Assembly (NCBI GenBank): GCA_012842745.1 | Contig: DUSF01000056.1 | Coordinates: forward strand, 186,001 to 250,000 | DNA from: Bacillus sp. (in: firmicutes) | GTDB lineage: Bacteria > Bacillota > Bacilli > Bacillales > Bacillaceae_J | Length of the DNA: 64,000 bases | Direction: 5' to 3' | Shown: piece by piece, positions 50,334-60,021 of the stretch | Numbering within the stretch: the first letter of the stretch is position 1 | How the letters are laid out: each line of letters starts with the position of its first letter | Made by a program: the position numbers and the translations under genes | Notes under the pieces: generated by a model | What the model was told of the DNA's origin: nothing | The model's input: the letters and a program-made list of their open reading frames with translations, nothing else | Database searches by the model: none

Positions 50334-52463
50334 TCATTTATCCGGTTCAAATACAAAAGTTTTCGCTTTTCGTTGCAGTTGATCCCATTGTTGAAGGAAA
50401 TTCTCCGGTGCTACGGGTGGACTATAGAGATATCCCTGCACGTGAGTACACTGTTCTCTCCGCAAAATATCCATTTGCTCTGTCGTTTCTACCCCTTCTG
50501 CAATTACATCAAGCTGCAAATGTTGCGCCATTGAAATGATGGTGGATACAATCGTATCATCCTGCCCATTTTCTGCGATATCTCTAATAAACGATTGGTC
50601 AATTTTCAGGCGGTGAATCGGAAGATGTTTTAGGTAATATAGGGATGAATACCCTGTTCCAAAATCATCTATGGCGATTTTACATCCCAAAGACTTTAGA
50701 GCTTGCAAGGTTTTTGATGCGTGTTCCATATTCATCATCATGCTTTCTGTAATCTCAAGCTCCAAATCCTCAGGTGGTAATCCTGTCTCATCCAGAATTC
50801 CTTTCACCGTTTCGATTAAGTCCTGCGAATAAAATTGGCGAGAGGACAGGTTTACGGCGATTTGAAGGAATGAAAGCCCAAGATCGTGCCACTCTTTTAA
50901 TTGTCTACATGCTGTCCGAAGCACCCATTCACCAATTGGGATAATAAGCCCAGTGTTTTCGGCGATAGGGATAAATTCTGCTGGAGAAATGGAGCCATAG
51001 CTTGGATGGTGCCAACGAAGCAATGCCTCTACTCCTTGTATTTCACCAGTTACAATATCCACCTGGGGCTGATAGACGAGACGGAGTTCATTATTTTGTA
51101 AAGCATGATGCAAATGGTTTTCCAAAACAAGGCGATCGAATGCTTTGCCGTCCATAGATGGTTGGTACATTTGAAAAGGAACTTGTTGTTGTTGTGCTTC
51201 CATGAGCGCCATGTTCGCGTGTTGTAAAAACTCGTCCACTTCAATTCCATTGTTGGCATAGACAGTACAACCTATGGTCACAGACACGCTCAGGATGAGA
51301 TTCTTAACCTGCATAGATTCGTTAATTTGCTTTTGAATTTGTTTGCACACCGCGACATACTCGTCTTCTTGATCCAAACCAGGGTAAATAATTGCAAATT
51401 CATCCCCAGTTAGACGTCCAACAAATACGGGGGATGGAAATAGTTCTCTTAGCCTGTTTGCAACCGACTTTAGAATCGAATCAGCAAAGGAGTGTCCAAG
51501 GGCCTCATTGATTTGTTTGAACCGATCGATATCGAGTATCAGTAGTGTAAATGGTTTGTTACTTTGCATTTCCTGCGTCAGTTTCTCTTTAATGTAACGA
51601 AGATTGGGTAGTTTTGTTAAATCATCGTGAAATGCCATGTATCGTAATTGTTCTTCAGCCTTTTTTTGATTCTCTTTCATTCTATTAAAATTTAATACCA
51701 ATTCACCAATTTCATCCTTGCTAGTTATTTCAATCGGCTCTTGCGAATAGTTGCTACGGGCAATTAACTTTGCCTGTTCTGCTACTTGAAGAATGGGCTT
51801 CGTCAATTTTTTTGAAAACCATAGAATGACAATCACACCAGCAAGGAACGAGAATCCAAGAGTAATTAACAAGACATAAAGTACACGATTTGCTCCAGCG
51901 TTAAAGTCGACTAAATAGGCCCCGGCACATACAATCCAATCCCAATTTGGATCTTTTTCCGCATAGGTAATTTTTGGTTCATGCACATTAGGGTTATCGG
52001 GCAAGGGCCATTCATAAGTGGCAAACCCTCCACCATTGTTGGCTGCTTTTACAATTTCTTTGGTAGAATAAACACCGTCGGTTGTCTTTACATTCCATAC
52101 ATTCACCCCTTCAAAGTTTGGATGTGCGAGCTCAAGCCCTGCGGAATTAATAATGAATATAAAGCCGTGTTTTCCTAAGTTCAGGCGCGGATTGATAGGG
52201 CGATGCCCGTCCGCATCTTTTTCTCCCAAAATCGCTTCTTTGACTTGTTCCTGAGCGTCCTCCAATAAAACCTTTCCTTCTTTTACTTGTTTATCCAACG
52301 CTCCAATCATTTCAATGGTCATCCGTACATCGGTTTGCAGGCCTTCAGCGCCAAGAGTATTTAAACTATTTCTGGAAGATTGATAACCAATGATTCCAAT
52401 TAATAGACTTGGTACTGCTAGAAATAGTAAGGACATAATTATTAATTTTATACGTATGGGCAT
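50334..52463 (-). CDS. Membrane Cache-HAMP-GGDEF-EAL protein (709 aa)
   Basis: Domains in order: membrane helix at 8-30, an extracytoplasmic Cache-type sensor (GKHGFIFIINSAGLELAHP, WDWIVCAGAYL), a second span near 207-230, HAMP, then GGDEF and EAL. The GGDEF signature reads RLTGDEFAII (about residue 349-355), so the first Gly is Thr and diguanylate cyclase activity is doubtful. The EAL half is intact: EALLRWHH (about 479), NLSSRQF, ITESMMM, IDDFGTGYSSL and the Glu of AEGVET. It should therefore hydrolyse cyclic di-GMP in response to a small outside ligand. The ATG at 52463 follows GGGGGG. Confidence 0.9.
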   Translation of the reverse strand: MPIRIKLIIMSLLFLAVPSLLIGIIGYQSSRNSLNTLGAEGLQTDVRMTIEMIGALDKQVKEGKVLLEDAQEQVKEAILGEKDADGHRPINPRLNLGKHGFIFIINSAGLELAHPNFEGVNVWNVKTTDGVYSTKEIVKAANNGGGFATYEWPLPDNPNVHEPKITYAEKDPNWDWIVCAGAYLVDFNAGANRVLYVLLITLGFSFLAGVIVILWFSKKLTKPILQVAEQAKLIARSNYSQEPIEITSKDEIGELVLNFNRMKENQKKAEEQLRYMAFHDDLTKLPNLRYIKEKLTQEMQSNKPFTLLILDIDRFKQINEALGHSFADSILKSVANRLRELFPSPVFVGRLTGDEFAIIYPGLDQEDEYVAVCKQIQKQINESMQVKNLILSVSVTIGCTVYANNGIEVDEFLQHANMALMEAQQQQVPFQMYQPSMDGKAFDRLVLENHLHHALQNNELRLVYQPQVDIVTGEIQGVEALLRWHHPSYGSISPAEFIPIAENTGLIIPIGEWVLRTACRQLKEWHDLGLSFLQIAVNLSSRQFYSQDLIETVKGILDETGLPPEDLELEITESMMMNMEHASKTLQALKSLGCKIAIDDFGTGYSSLYYLKHLPIHRLKIDQSFIRDIAENGQDDTIVSTIISMAQHLQLDVIAEGVETTEQMDILRREQCTHVQGYLYSPPVAPENFLQQWDQLQRKAKTFVFEPDK

Positions 52464-52604
52464 TCTCCAAGAACCCCCCCTTAAAATGTATAATTGTTCC
52501 AACTAATTATATTGTAACTTGCAATTGAAATAGTACAATAGCTGTGATAACAAAAATACAAAAATATTGAAATTTTTCGCTTTTATTTAACTGTTGTCAA
52601 AAAT

Positions 52605-53493: not shown

Positions 53494-53599
53494 CATGTGG
53501 TGCTTACATATTTAAGTGACATTTACCCCTAAATTATGGTAAACAATTAGGTATATTGTAGTATAATGAGTGAAAAGGTCAAATTTTGGAGTGATAAAA

Positions 53600-55519
53600 T
53601 TGGCTTATACAGTACCAGAAACGATTCGTTCTTCAGCTACAACAGGAGAAAGATTACTTTTTCGGACGTTAAAAACTTATTTGCCTGATGATTATATCGT
53701 CTATTATGAGCCCGAAATTCACGGAAAGCGCCCAGATTTTGTTATTATTGGTCCAGACTTGGGGTTATTAGTGCTAGAGGTTAAGGATTATACAAAAAAT
53801 ACACTATTTCAATTAAATAGTGACGAATGGACGTTAGTGACATCTGCAGGTGAACAAACGAAAACGAAAAGCCCTGTAAAGCAAGCACGGGACTATATGT
53901 TTCATATTGTGAATGTACTAAAGAAGGATAAAAACCTAGTTCATTTAGAAGGAAAATATCAGTTTCAACTCAAGTTTCCTTGTGGGTTTGGCACCGTCTT
54001 TACTCGTCTTCACCAAAAAGATTTTATTGAAAACGGCCTGTATAGTGTAATTGAGCCGTCATTGTCCCTAACAAGAGACGAGATTGATCCTGAAAAAGAG
54101 GCTTTTTCCGAGGAAAACCTAATTGAAAAAATCACCAATATGTTTGTTGTACCATATAGATTGAGGGCACCATTAGTAAAAGAGGAAATTGATGCAATCC
54201 GATATCACCTTTTTCCAGAAGTTCGGATTAGTGCCGAGTTTAAAGAGCCCGTCCCATACCAAGATCAGTTGCTTTTGTCGCTGCACGATATTAAAGCAAT
54301 GGATTTACACCAAGAAAACCTTGCCAAGCAGATTGGCGACAAAAATCGCCTAATCCGTGGTGTTGCTGGAAGCGGTAAAACCTTAATTCTAGCAAGCCGC
54401 GCAAAATTACTAGTGAAGGATCATCCAGACTGGAAAATCCTAATTTTATGTTATAATATCTCGCTTTCACGCAGCATTGAACAAATGATTTATCATATGA
54501 TGAAGGAGCCTGACAGCCTTTTCGATTTTGATTTTACAAAAGAAGATTCAGATCTGGCATGTTCTAACCATAATATTTTGGTTCGAAATTTTCATGCATG
54601 GCTTAAACATGATTTGAAAATTACTGAGAGAGAGATTCCAGCGATTATTGAAAAAATTGAAAAGGGCGAAGCCATTCTGCCAATGTACGATGCAATTTTG
54701 ATTGATGAAGGACAAGACTTTGAAGTAGAGTGGTTTCAGCTTGTAAGCAGCTTGCTTAATCCTGAAACAAAATCACTGCTTTTAGTAGAGGATCGAGCAC
54801 AAGATATATATAAGCGGAAAAGAAGCTATCTTCAGGACACAGGACTAAGCTTTCAAGGGCGTTCCAAAATTTTAAGTATCAACTATCGGAATACTGCTCA
54901 AATCGTTACATTTGCCTGGGATTTTTATCAAAATAATTCTTCTTTACAAAATAAAGTTGTTTCGAAAGAATATGAGGGCGAAATCATTGCGCCGCAAAGT
55001 ACTAGAAGAAAAGGCGTAGAGCCAGCGATTGTAAAAGCAGCCAGCTTTTTTAAAGAAGCAAAAATAGTCGCTAGGCAAATTCGAAAGCTTCATGAGCAGT
55101 ACAAAGTTCCGCTTTCGGAAATGTTAATCCTTTACCGGGTCAAAAAAACGTACAATATGAGTTACATAGATGTATTGAAACGTGCCCTTGACGAAGAAGG
55201 CCTTCGGTATTATTGGCTAACAGAAAACAGTGAATCAAAACGAAATTTTGATAAGGATCAGGATACTGTGAAAATAAGTACAATTGAAAGCAGCAAAGGG
55301 TTGGACTTTCAAGCTGTGTTTATCGTTAATGTTGACAATATGCCATTTGCGCTAGTAGAAGATAAAGAGCGGGAAGCTTCATTATTGTATATTGGCATGA
55401 CTAGAGCGAAAGAATTTTTGTGCTTGTCATATTCGGGGGAATCAGAGTTTACTGAATATTTTGATCGGATTTTGGAGCAAAGGAAAGAAGAGAAAAAGTC
55501 TAGTGAAAAAAGCAGTTGA
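53600..55519 (+). CDS. NERD-domain superfamily I helicase (639 aa)
   Basis: The N-terminal NERD (nuclease-related) domain has PEIHGKRPDFVII and LLVLEVKDYT, with the D-ExK positions of a PD-(D/E)XK nuclease. A UvrD-like helicase follows: Walker A RGVAGSGKTLILAS, Walker B ILIDEGQDFE, the INYRNT motif and the C-terminal TIESSKGLDFQAVFI. Such fusions are often linked to DNA uptake or phage defence. The TTG at 53600 has GGAG 8 bases upstream. It opens an island rich in broken defence-type genes, with no terminator or operon link visible. Confidence 0.85.
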   Translation: MAYTVPETIRSSATTGERLLFRTLKTYLPDDYIVYYEPEIHGKRPDFVIIGPDLGLLVLEVKDYTKNTLFQLNSDEWTLVTSAGEQTKTKSPVKQARDYMFHIVNVLKKDKNLVHLEGKYQFQLKFPCGFGTVFTRLHQKDFIENGLYSVIEPSLSLTRDEIDPEKEAFSEENLIEKITNMFVVPYRLRAPLVKEEIDAIRYHLFPEVRISAEFKEPVPYQDQLLLSLHDIKAMDLHQENLAKQIGDKNRLIRGVAGSGKTLILASRAKLLVKDHPDWKILILCYNISLSRSIEQMIYHMMKEPDSLFDFDFTKEDSDLACSNHNILVRNFHAWLKHDLKITEREIPAIIEKIEKGEAILPMYDAILIDEGQDFEVEWFQLVSSLLNPETKSLLLVEDRAQDIYKRKRSYLQDTGLSFQGRSKILSINYRNTAQIVTFAWDFYQNNSSLQNKVVSKEYEGEIIAPQSTRRKGVEPAIVKAASFFKEAKIVARQIRKLHEQYKVPLSEMLILYRVKKTYNMSYIDVLKRALDEEGLRYYWLTENSESKRNFDKDQDTVKISTIESSKGLDFQAVFIVNVDNMPFALVEDKEREASLLYIGMTRAKEFLCLSYSGESEFTEYFDRILEQRKEEKKSSEKSS

Positions 55520-55766: not shown

Positions 55767-57349
55767 AAGCATTTTGAAAAGGTCATTTCGAATAAATCGA
55801 CCGGTCTCTATTATGGATCTGACAAGAATCCGAATGCAGATGCTGTTTTTGCGTCCGTTGTAACATTAAGTATGAAAAGACATCTTGCAGCTTTTAAACA
55901 AAAGGCTTTTGACTTAATTATTATTGATGAATTTCATCATGCGGCAGCCAATACATATCAGCGGGTATTAGAATATTTTGAACCAGAGTTCTTGCTAGGA
56001 ATTACAGCAACACCAGACCGTATGGATAATAAAGATATTTATGGAGTTTGTGATGGCAATGTTGCTTACCAAATGCATTTTACAGAAGCGATTGAAAAAC
56101 AGTGGTTAGCACCGTTTAAATATTATGGTGTTTATGATGAAACAGATTATACAAAAGTGAAATGGATTGGCACAAAATACGATCGTGAAGAGCTATTAGC
56201 AGTCCAATTAAGAGAGGACATGGCCCAAAAAACATTGAAGGCTTGGGCACAGCATAAGCAAACAAGAACACTAGTTTTCTGTTCAAGTATAAAACAGGCT
56301 GCATTTCTATCAAATTTTTTTAACGGTCATGGATTCAAAACAATAGCACTACATTCAGGACAAATTGAAGTTAGTAGAAAAGATGCAATTTTTTTACTTG
56401 AAAATGGAGAAATAGATGCTATTTTTACAGTTGATCTTTTCAATGAAGGTATAGACATACCCGCGGTTGATACTTTGCTGATTGTGCGCCCAACGGAGTC
56501 ATTGGCAGTGTTTACACAACAGGTAGGCCGTGGCCTTAGACGTCATCGTGATAAAACGTATTGCACCATTATAGATTTAATAGGAAACTATCGGAATGCG
56601 GATTTAAAGCTGAGCTTATTTGATACTAGTAGAAATGAAAAAAAGAAAGCAAAGTTGGTAGACCCAATCCCGCCAGAATTATGTGAAATCAATCTTGAGT
56701 TAAACGTTATTAATTTATTAAATGAGCTTGCACATAAACGGCAGCCGCGAAGAGAAAAGCTCCTATTTGCCTATCAAGAGTTAAAAGAAGAACTAGGTAG
56801 AAGGCCGTCCTATTTGGAATTACATTTAAATGGGAGTGCTGAATCAAAGGAGTACAAACAAGAATTCAAATCATACGTCAGCTTTCTTCATTGGGCGGAA
56901 GAATTATCTTATGAAGAAAACGAAGTCTATGAAAAGTGCAAATCATGGCTTGATGAAGTAGAATCAACAGGCATGAGCAAAAGCTATAAAAGGGTTGTTT
57001 TGCTGGCAATGGAGCAGAAAAGTGGCATTTGCCAATTACACCGGAACAAGTAGCATCTTTTTTTTAAGAGTATTACCAGCAGAAAAAATACCAGATGATC
57101 ATCGAGTTTTCAAAAGAGAAGGATAAAGGTGCTTGGCTTAATGATGGGACGAAATTAATCAATCAAATTAAAGCTATGCCAATGACCAAATGGAGCGGGA
57201 GTTCGAAAGGATTAGTGGAATTTAAGGGGAATCAGTTTAGGCTAACGTTTGAAATTGATAAAGCTCATTGGGACATATTGTATCGTTTTACTAAAGAAAT
57301 ATGTGAATACAGGTTGCATGAGTATTTTGAGCGGAAGGGGAAAGGGTAG
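55766..57349 (+). pseudogene. Truncated, multiply frameshifted superfamily II helicase (DUF3427 type)
   Basis: The largest open piece (55872-57053) has the DEAH-like IIIDEFHHAAANTYQ, the LLGITATPDRMD motif, and motif VI in FTQQVGRGLRRHRDK. These match DUF3427-type helicases, whose full length is about 900-1000 aa; the N-terminal part with Walker A is missing. Homology begins at 55766 with FASVVTLS, joined directly to a MazG-like fragment. A frameshift near 57018 puts the next segment (WHLPITPEQVASFF) in another frame to 57126, and a third frame carries the C-terminal YRLHEYFERK to 57349. Not functional. Confidence 0.7.
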
Positions 57350-57477
57350 GAAGTTAAAAAGAAAAAGTATCGAAGTGCCAAGCACATCAATATTACAGGG
57401 CATTTTATAAATATATCGAACTATTGAACTATTGAATTTTTATTTTTATAAATTGCAACACTAGTGGAAAAAGATAA

Positions 57478-57752
57478 ATAATGGAAAACCTATGACAGAC
57501 GTTTGGATTCTGCCTCATGTATCCCCAATAGAAAAAGAATTTGGATATCATCCCACACAAAAACCCTTACAATTACTTGAGCGGATTATATTGAGTTGCG
57601 CAAAACCATATGATTTAGTTCTTGATCCATTTAATGGTAGTGGAACTACTTCAGTTGCAGCTATTAAAAATAATAGGAGATTTATTGGTATTGAGAATAA
57701 TAAAAGCTTTTTTGAAATTAGTTCTGAACGTGTAGCTTTTTTACAAAAATAA
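57478..57752 (+). pseudogene. 3' remnant of a beta-class DNA methyltransferase
   Basis: The 86-residue open piece has NNGKPMTDVW, YHPTQKPLQLLERII and LDPFNGSGTTSVAAIKN, which is the C-terminal motif order (S-adenosylmethionine motif I last) of beta-class N6/N4 methyltransferases. The catalytic DPPY half is missing. It lies just before a Dam-type methyltransferase, in the arrangement of a DpnII-type cluster that has two methylases, so it may be the remains of the second one. Confidence 0.7.
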
Positions 57753-57885
57753 ATTCTTCTAATACAATATAACCCTTTTCATTTATTATTTGTGATTTAT
57801 TTGTTTAAGTAAAAATGTTATGATATAGTAGAAATTTTGTTCGTATATTTAATAGTTTTTTTGAAGTATAAGGGAGAGAAATATA

Positions 57886-58758
57886 GTGGCAAAAGTAATA
57901 AAAAAAAAGTTAGCTCAGCCTTTCCTAAAGTGGGCGGGTGGAAAGCGTCAACTGCTTCCAGAGATTCGTAAGTATGTTCCTAAAAGAATTAATACTTACT
58001 ATGAGCCTTTCATCGGGGCTGGAGCTGTCCTTTTTGACCTACAACCTAAGAAGGCTATTGTAAATGATATTAACGTTGAACTTGTTAATGTCTACAATGT
58101 TGTTAAAGATAAAGTAGACGAGCTTATTGAGGAATTAAAAATGCATGAGAATAGAAATGATAGTGAATATTTCTATACTATGCGGGATCTAGATAGAGAT
58201 AAGAAAAAGTACAACCAACTTTCCCAAGTGGAAAGAGCAGCGAGAATGATTTATTTGAACAAAACATGCTATAATGGTCTGTTTAGAGTAAACAGTCAAG
58301 GCCAATTTAATGTTCCTTTTGGTAAGTACAAAAACCCTCAAATAGTAAATGAGATTGTTTTAAAGGCTGTTCATAATTATTTAAGATTAAATGATGTAAC
58401 TATATGGAATAAAGATTTTTCAGAAGTTATTAATTCAGTTAAAAAGGGTGATTTTGTTTACTTTGACCCTCCATATGATCCAGTTTCAGACACATCTTCT
58501 TTTACTGGATACAGCTTGGCTGGATTTAATAGGGATGACCAACTCAGACTAAGAGATGTATGTGTAGAGTTGGATAAAAGAGGATGCAAATTCCTGTTAA
58601 GCAATTCTGCTACTGATTTTATTAAAGAAAAATATAATGAAAAAGGATTCCATGTTGAAATAGTATCGGCATCTAGACATATCAACTCAGTGGCTTCTAA
58701 GCGTGGAAAAATTGATGAAGTGCTGGTGATGAACTATGACCCAAACAAAAACGGATAA
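57886..58758 (+). CDS. Dam-type adenine-specific DNA methyltransferase (290 aa)
   Basis: Alpha-class N6-adenine methyltransferase of the Dam/DpnM type: motif X LKWAGGKRQLLPEI, motif I YEPFIGAGAVLFDL, motif IV YFDPPYDPVS, plus the LNKTCYNGLFRVNSQGQFN region that contacts DNA. Length is normal. The recognition sequence cannot be read from the gene; GATC is only the typical target. The start is a GTG after AAGGGAGAG. The restriction endonuclease gene follows in the same direction after 13 bases, so this is the protective half of a type II system. Confidence 0.9.
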   Translation: MAKVIKKKLAQPFLKWAGGKRQLLPEIRKYVPKRINTYYEPFIGAGAVLFDLQPKKAIVNDINVELVNVYNVVKDKVDELIEELKMHENRNDSEYFYTMRDLDRDKKKYNQLSQVERAARMIYLNKTCYNGLFRVNSQGQFNVPFGKYKNPQIVNEIVLKAVHNYLRLNDVTIWNKDFSEVINSVKKGDFVYFDPPYDPVSDTSSFTGYSLAGFNRDDQLRLRDVCVELDKRGCKFLLSNSATDFIKEKYNEKGFHVEIVSASRHINSVASKRGKIDEVLVMNYDPNKNG

Positions 58759-58771
58759 AGCCTAGGAAATA

Positions 58772-59902
58772 TTGTTTGAACGACATAAGATATTACAAAA
58801 GGTGCAACAAAAAGGCTTTTTTGAAATTAAAGCTAGTGAAATAAAGCATGTAAGAGAGCCAAGGTTAATGGCTAAATTTGACCACTTCAGCCACTTACCA
58901 AAGTTATTTAAGGACAATGGGTTATCAATATTACCTATCTCACGGTCTAGCTATGTAATTGGTGAGTTTGATGTTTATGAGAAGGTAACTTATAATCCGA
59001 AAATAAAACCAATTCAAGTAGAGTTTCCTAATGACATAACAACTATAGACCCTACTAATCTATATTCAGAAAGCTCAGCTCTCCATTGTGCTCATGTTAC
59101 TGGTATGATGGAAATGGTCATGGGTGAACTATCTATCCAGACTATCTCGGGAAGAATGTCATCAAAAGAATTTGATTTTAATATAAAAGCTAGAATAGGT
59201 ACTGACTGCCTCATTAAAATTAAGAATTCTCAGATTGAAATTGATGGGGGATATGAGGGTCAAAGAAAATTTATGATAGTGGAAGCTAAAAATGAGACTG
59301 TTGATGATTTCCACGTTAGACAGCTTTATTATCCTTATCGCTTATGGCAAGAAAAGACCTTTAAACAAGTTAAGCCAGTCTTTTTCACATTCTCAAATGA
59401 CATTTTTAGCTTTTTTGTTTATGAGTTTACTGACCCTTCTAGGTACAACTCATTAAGACTTATCGAGCAAAAAGATTTTATTATTGCTCATGAGGCCCTG
59501 AAATTTGATGATATTGTTGAGGTATTTCAATCGGTTAAAACTGTTCCAGAGCCAGAGTTGCCATTTCCACAAGCTGACTCTTTCACAAGGGTTGTTGACT
59601 TGTTAGGTTTGCTAGTTGAGAATGATTTGAGCAATGATGAGATTACATTAAATTATGCTTTTGACGAAAGACAAACAGGCTATTACACTAGGGCTGGAAT
59701 GTATCTTGGTTTAATGGAAACTTACAAAGATGAAAATAAAAGGATTATGTTCAGACTAACCAGAGCTGGAAAAGAAATATTGAGACTCAAAACAAAAGAT
59801 AAATTCTTGAGGTTGACAAGTTGTATTCTATCTCATGTACCATTCAGGTTGGTATTGGCTGAGTATTTTCAAAATGGTGCCCCCCAGAAAAGGCAAGGGT
59901 AA
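58772..59902 (+). CDS. Type II restriction endonuclease, C terminus lost by frameshift (376 aa)
   Basis: The protein resembles putative type II restriction enzymes of the DUF6996/DUF6997 kind. A PD-(D/E)XK-like core is in EIDGGYEG and MIVEAKNE. It lies 13 bases after a Dam-type methyltransferase gene. The start is a TTG with a weak site. At 59880-59885 a run of six C ends the good frame: the normal C terminus (KNCNLYNVKKESTFFRRSST, then INWILDLPETY) is encoded one base out of frame to a TAG at 60019-60021. The current protein lacks about 45 residues and may be inactive. Confidence 0.75.
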   Translation: MFERHKILQKVQQKGFFEIKASEIKHVREPRLMAKFDHFSHLPKLFKDNGLSILPISRSSYVIGEFDVYEKVTYNPKIKPIQVEFPNDITTIDPTNLYSESSALHCAHVTGMMEMVMGELSIQTISGRMSSKEFDFNIKARIGTDCLIKIKNSQIEIDGGYEGQRKFMIVEAKNETVDDFHVRQLYYPYRLWQEKTFKQVKPVFFTFSNDIFSFFVYEFTDPSRYNSLRLIEQKDFIIAHEALKFDDIVEVFQSVKTVPEPELPFPQADSFTRVVDLLGLLVENDLSNDEITLNYAFDERQTGYYTRAGMYLGLMETYKDENKRIMFRLTRAGKEILRLKTKDKFLRLTSCILSHVPFRLVLAEYFQNGAPQKRQG

Positions 59903-60021
59903 TTGAAATAATGAAAAATTGTAATTTGTACAACGTCAAGAAGGAGAGCACTTTTTTTAGAAGATCGTCGACTGTTATAGGTCGGATAAACTGGATTTTA
60001 GACTTACCAGAAACCTACTAG
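59884..60021 (+). pseudogene. Out-of-frame C terminus of the restriction endonuclease
   Basis: Reading from 59884 in the shifted frame gives PEKARVIEIMKNC, a predicted helix-turn-helix with TFFRRSSTVIGRINWIL, and a stop. Adding one C to the C6 run would join it to the endonuclease gene. Confidence 0.65.

Follow-up and report, generated by a model that had tools for sequence, protein, structure and literature searches.

Organization of the locus

The window analysed here is a 64,000-nucleotide stretch of contig DUSF01000056.1 of a Bacillus sp. genome, and all positions given below are those of the window; the genome is a draft assembly (3.5 Mb, 71 contigs) with a completeness of 99%, and the lesions described were read in this one genome. 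Three elements follow each other on the forward strand: the 3′-remnant of a beta-class DNA methylase gene, an intact methylase gene of the Dam/DpnM family and an endonuclease pseudogene. The intact gene (57886..58758) codes for an alpha-class DNA adenine methylase with a predicted GATC specificity, which matches PF02086 over profile positions 1-248 of 253, as well as TIGR00571 (dam), and whose best match in the structural database is DpnM (2dpm; 304 bits, E 8e-90). The protein has the DPPY and FIGAGA motifs; with a full-length PF02086 domain and its catalytic motifs, it has what is expected of the cognate methylase in a functional type II restriction-modification (R-M) system. The gene is present in a single copy and is the sole member of the Dam/DpnM family in the genome. 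It is likely to be expressed and its product active, presumably still methylating GATC as an orphan.

Upstream of it, the region 57468..57752 (+) corresponds to the last 97 or so residues of a beta-class N6-adenine methylase of 262 amino acids (PF01555, profile positions 141-220 of 221), in agreement with the preliminary description, made from the sequence alone, which had recognized such a remnant. The remnant retains the HPTQKP and DPFNGSGTT motifs, i.e., the SAM-binding part, whereas the N-terminal catalytic part with its DPPY motif is gone. It is 62% identical to residues 166-262 of the methylase found at the corresponding locus of Bacillus renqingensis (L034), with 72% identity at the DNA level, and the N-terminal half was found nowhere in the window. 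In B. renqingensis an intact 262-residue beta-class methylase is encoded directly upstream of the methylase and endonuclease genes, which supports the suggestion that the system once had two methylases. Intact beta-class methylases are also found upstream in three other loci (L050, L051 and L082); since most members of the endonuclease family lack one, the beta-class enzyme is an occasional companion of the family.

Further upstream lies a second pseudogene (55767..57334, +; tblastn and PADLOC), coding for a DEAD/ResIII helicase (mREase_IV-like in PADLOC) that in its intact form has about 814 residues. Residues 1-283 are missing, and a frameshift is located between about 57011 and 57023: in a tblastn comparison with an intact 814-residue homologue (L111), identity is 79% over residues 284-699 and 73% over residues 707-810, the latter in another frame. 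Homologues of about 814 residues are widespread in the order, and the intact L111 copy (79% identical) comes from a genome of the same family. Several defence genes lie in ruins within this small region. An open gene for a 649-residue protein with NERD and UvrD-like helicase domains (53570-55519), whose best PADLOC match is C3a187 (NERD+UvrD; 379 bits), is found directly upstream of the broken helicase gene and is a candidate defence gene, and a PD-(D/E)XK recombination-promoting nuclease/transposase of the Rpn family (PF12784; 61542-62384) adjoins the R-M locus. Among the G/C runs of the window, the longest is a G7 on the minus strand (52474-52480), which lies shortly before the ATG of a Cache-HAMP-GGDEF-EAL gene (50334-52502); it is probably part of the leader, and its length could affect expression.

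Lesions in the endonuclease gene

The endonuclease pseudogene (58736..60021, +) was identified with Pfam, PADLOC (REase_II, PDLC03513) and alignments to sets of 16 and of 75 intact relatives; it is of type II and carries DUF6996, DUF6997 and DUF7226. Its natural start is the ATG at 58736, within the 3′-end of the methylase gene and overlapping the methylase stop; in the relatives, too, the endonuclease start lies within the last part of the methylase gene. From this ATG the frame reads MTQTKTDKA, meets an in-frame TAG at 58763..58765, and continues as EILFERHKIL. The TAG is codon 10 of the gene, which is TGG in the relatives: Trp occupies this position in all 76 intact relatives checked, and the six closest (L029, L030, L033, L034, L036 and L070; 76-79% identity) all have both the TGG and the C-terminal tail in frame. 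Because the TAG blocks the natural frame, the list of open reading frames has the gene start instead at a TTG (58772), three codons past the stop and preceded by an AGGA-like sequence. The residual open frame from this TTG (58772..59902, +) has 376 codons, as compared with 425-449 residues in homologues, and its product would be without the first 12 and about the last 47 residues of the endonuclease.

The residual frame ends five codons beyond a run of six C (59880..59885, +), the second lesion, at which multiple DNA and protein alignments place the loss of the endonuclease frame relative to all close relatives. As far as these alignments go, the loss is unambiguous. The run itself had been correctly described and the frame is indeed lost there; as the point at which the gene is switched off it does not stand alone, since there is a second lesion and the broken feature begins at 58736, not at 58772. 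Past the run, the conserved C terminus of the family (about the last 47 residues, STxxRRASTVxxWxxW), which makes up the last part of the winged-helix region, is read in a different frame (59884..60018, +), a frame matched in tblastn by the L019 and L020 proteins with 55-60% identity; the match to DUF7226 breaks off at profile position 102 of 142 because this part sits in another frame. The preliminary description held the C terminus to be intact but out of frame. Out of frame it is; it is not fully intact, as a TGG to CGG change replaces by Arg a Trp that is otherwise invariant.

The remainder of the gene is well preserved. Over 79 columns conserved to at least 95% in 75 relatives, only two departures were found among the columns covered, the stop and the Trp to Arg change in the tail; nine close relatives together show one departure over the same 79 columns. 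Of the 74 conserved columns in the N-terminal part, 73 are kept and the remaining one is that of the stop. The catalytic motif IEID...VEAK is intact, and its residues E156, D158, E162, E171 and K173 are invariant in 16 of 16 relatives. With a PD-(D/E)XK motif and with DUF6996, DUF6997 and DUF7226 in order, the gene is a decayed member of that family; the TAG at codon 10 and the frame loss at 59880-59885 deprive the locus of the intact endonuclease of a functional type II R-M system. Read in this way, the gene is disabled by two or more independent defects, its product would be inactive, and the state of the body of the gene, including the nuclease motif, marks the loss as recent. A branch-specific dN/dS estimate gave a hint of relaxed constraint and was discarded, synonymous sites being near saturation and the result dependent on the outgroup.

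The endonuclease family and its predicted structure

A scan found 484 relatives, of which 80 named ones were kept. The endonuclease frame is open in 77 of these 80 (422-476 residues) and broken in three, and in most of the 80 loci the gene lies directly behind that of a DpnM-like methylase. All 16 intact homologues from genomes of the order and from plasmids directly adjoin a DpnM-like methylase gene, one of them divergently. Family members with a broken frame include those of Lyngbya aestuarii (L096, 5941-7254), L094 and L099; as L096 has kept an intact methylase (293 residues), it may be another instance of such decay. An intact member on a Mammaliicoccus sciuri plasmid (L013, 3950-5257), with the methylase divergent, is labelled ‘translation elongation factor’, an erroneous annotation that has apparently been propagated.

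A structure model of the B. renqingensis endonuclease is confident throughout (pLDDT 94); its first helix holds the Trp that is a TAG in our gene, and the lost tail is the end of its C-terminal domain. No Foldseek match to the model was obtained at E≤0.001, and weaker matches were to winged-helix regulators and a Cas4-like nuclease. These matches are consistent with a PD-(D/E)XK core joined to a winged-helix region. A sequence search of the PDB gave nothing meaningful and no solved relative, the endonuclease was absent from the phage records searched, and our literature search found no paper naming DUF6997.

Avoidance of GATC in the host genome

Over 191 kb of the host genome, no four-base palindrome is avoided more strongly than GATC, which has 1.66 sites per kb and a Karlin index of 0.69; the threshold for avoidance in PMC4687349 is an index of 0.78 or below. 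In six comparators that lack the endonuclease, three from the same genus and three from the same family, GATC is found 2.8-3.5 times per kb (index 0.89-1.01). Moreover, ten genomes of the order that carry an intact homologue have lower indices than ten that lack one (0.57-0.97 vs 0.80-1.08; p = 0.003 in a Mann-Whitney test without correction for kinship), and GATC is avoided in half of the nuclease-positive genomes. The avoidance points to a long past activity of the system and to its specificity for GATC, a specificity that we infer from this avoidance together with the homology of the methylase. Another, unrecognised GATC nuclease could also have produced the avoidance; no nuclease of the DpnII (PF04556) or MutH families was found in the genome, while the control for the PF04556 search was matched.

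Probable decay of the system and alternative readings

We consider it very probable that the locus is what remains of a GATC-specific type II R-M system that broke down recently, with its DpnM-like methylase left as an orphan. The ancestral operon would have coded for two adenine methylases, one of the beta class and one DpnM-like, and for a PD-(D/E)XK endonuclease with a winged-helix region at its C-terminal end. The endonuclease gene of this lineage would have gained a nonsense codon near its start and lost its frame near its end, the beta-class methylase gene would have lost its 5′ two thirds, and the adjoining helicase gene would have decayed too, with the DpnM-like methylase surviving alone as an orphan; the order of these events is one that we infer. 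The preliminary description had offered a recent loss of this kind and a reversible slippage switch side by side, and the independent lesions in the endonuclease gene, next to an intact methylase frame, speak for the former.

A phase-variable switch, in which slippage in the C run toggles the endonuclease, would account for the run being placed exactly at the point of frame loss and for a frame that can otherwise be read beyond it to the end of the family's sequence. However, a change in run length leaves the nonsense codon in place, so that slippage cannot re-activate the gene: the tract is not the sole obstacle to expression, decay being present elsewhere in the gene in the form of the TAG at codon 10, at an invariant Trp, which the preliminary description had missed. 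Nor is the tract shared by relatives, as DNA alignment showed no C run at this site in any of the six closest; the tail, too, has lost its invariant Trp. Six bases are short for a contingency tract. The window has four C6 runs against a mean of 8.0 expected from shuffled sequence, and because such runs are no commoner than by chance the run by itself is no signal. A switch at this site is accordingly given next to no credence, and what is seen is ordinary gene decay. Programmed −1 frameshifting at the run was also considered and is unlikely, since the zero-frame reading GCC CCC CAG is no standard slippery heptamer and the relatives read through the site without any shift.

An endonuclease gene that is really intact and only appears broken through sequencing or assembly error might be suspected in a draft of 71 contigs, the more so as errors are most often indels in homopolymers and one of the lesions is of this type. 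The other lesions, however, are substitutions (TGG to TAG and TGG to CGG) and large truncations of two upstream genes, and other parts of the window contain long core genes, mutL among them, with open frames; we regard such an error as very improbable. It is just as doubtful that a shortened protein made from the TTG at 58772 has kept some function, in binding or weak nicking. Its re-initiation site lies beside the stop, and the catalytic motif is kept along with nearly all the conserved N-terminal columns; yet the protein would lack the invariant Trp of the predicted first helix among the missing N-terminal residues, as well as the end of its predicted C-terminal domain, and the frame loss and the Trp to Arg change in the unread tail point to drift. 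A further proposal, that the orphan GATC methylase has been retained for a new regulatory role with the truncated DUF6997 protein as its DNA-binding partner, seems to us highly unlikely.

With the proposed phase-variable switch removed, the locus offers a clear snapshot of an orphan adenine methylase arising, in which the wrecked partner genes are still present and GATC avoidance persists in the host. Indirectly, the comparison also backs GATC as the sequence recognised by a widespread family of endonucleases whose domains are still listed in Pfam as of unknown function.

Comparison with known systems

The closest parallel is found in B. renqingensis REN2, which has the same order of beta-class methylase, DpnM-like methylase and endonuclease genes, with 80% DNA identity across the last two; all three genes are open there, whereas the present locus retains only a piece of the first and has two breaks in the third. 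The PADLOC REase_II (PDLC03513) proteins with DUF6996, DUF6997 and DUF7226 match the endonuclease over residues 1-369 and have the same methylase partner, but they are intact proteins of 422-476 residues and the copy described here is a pseudogene. With the DpnII system of Streptococcus pneumoniae (DpnM, DpnA and DpnB) the locus shares a DpnM homologue, an adjoining beta-class methylase, here a remnant only, and the predicted GATC target; DpnA acts on single-stranded DNA (PMC3573125). The gene order differs, and the endonuclease belongs to DUF6997 and not to PF04556, a family without a representative in the genome, so that at the level of sequence families the enzyme is, as had been noted, unlike DpnII.

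Further parallels are the orphan methylases of the Dam family left behind when R-M systems decay, and the traces of lost R-M systems for which it has been proposed that avoidance makes the system useless, the system decays and the avoidance persists (PMC4687349). Our locus, by analogy, looks like the stage of decay at which avoidance remains: it shares with those cases an intact methylase next to a corrupted endonuclease gene and a persisting avoidance of the site. It differs from them in that fragments of the lost genes remain, and because these are still there the loss would be recent.
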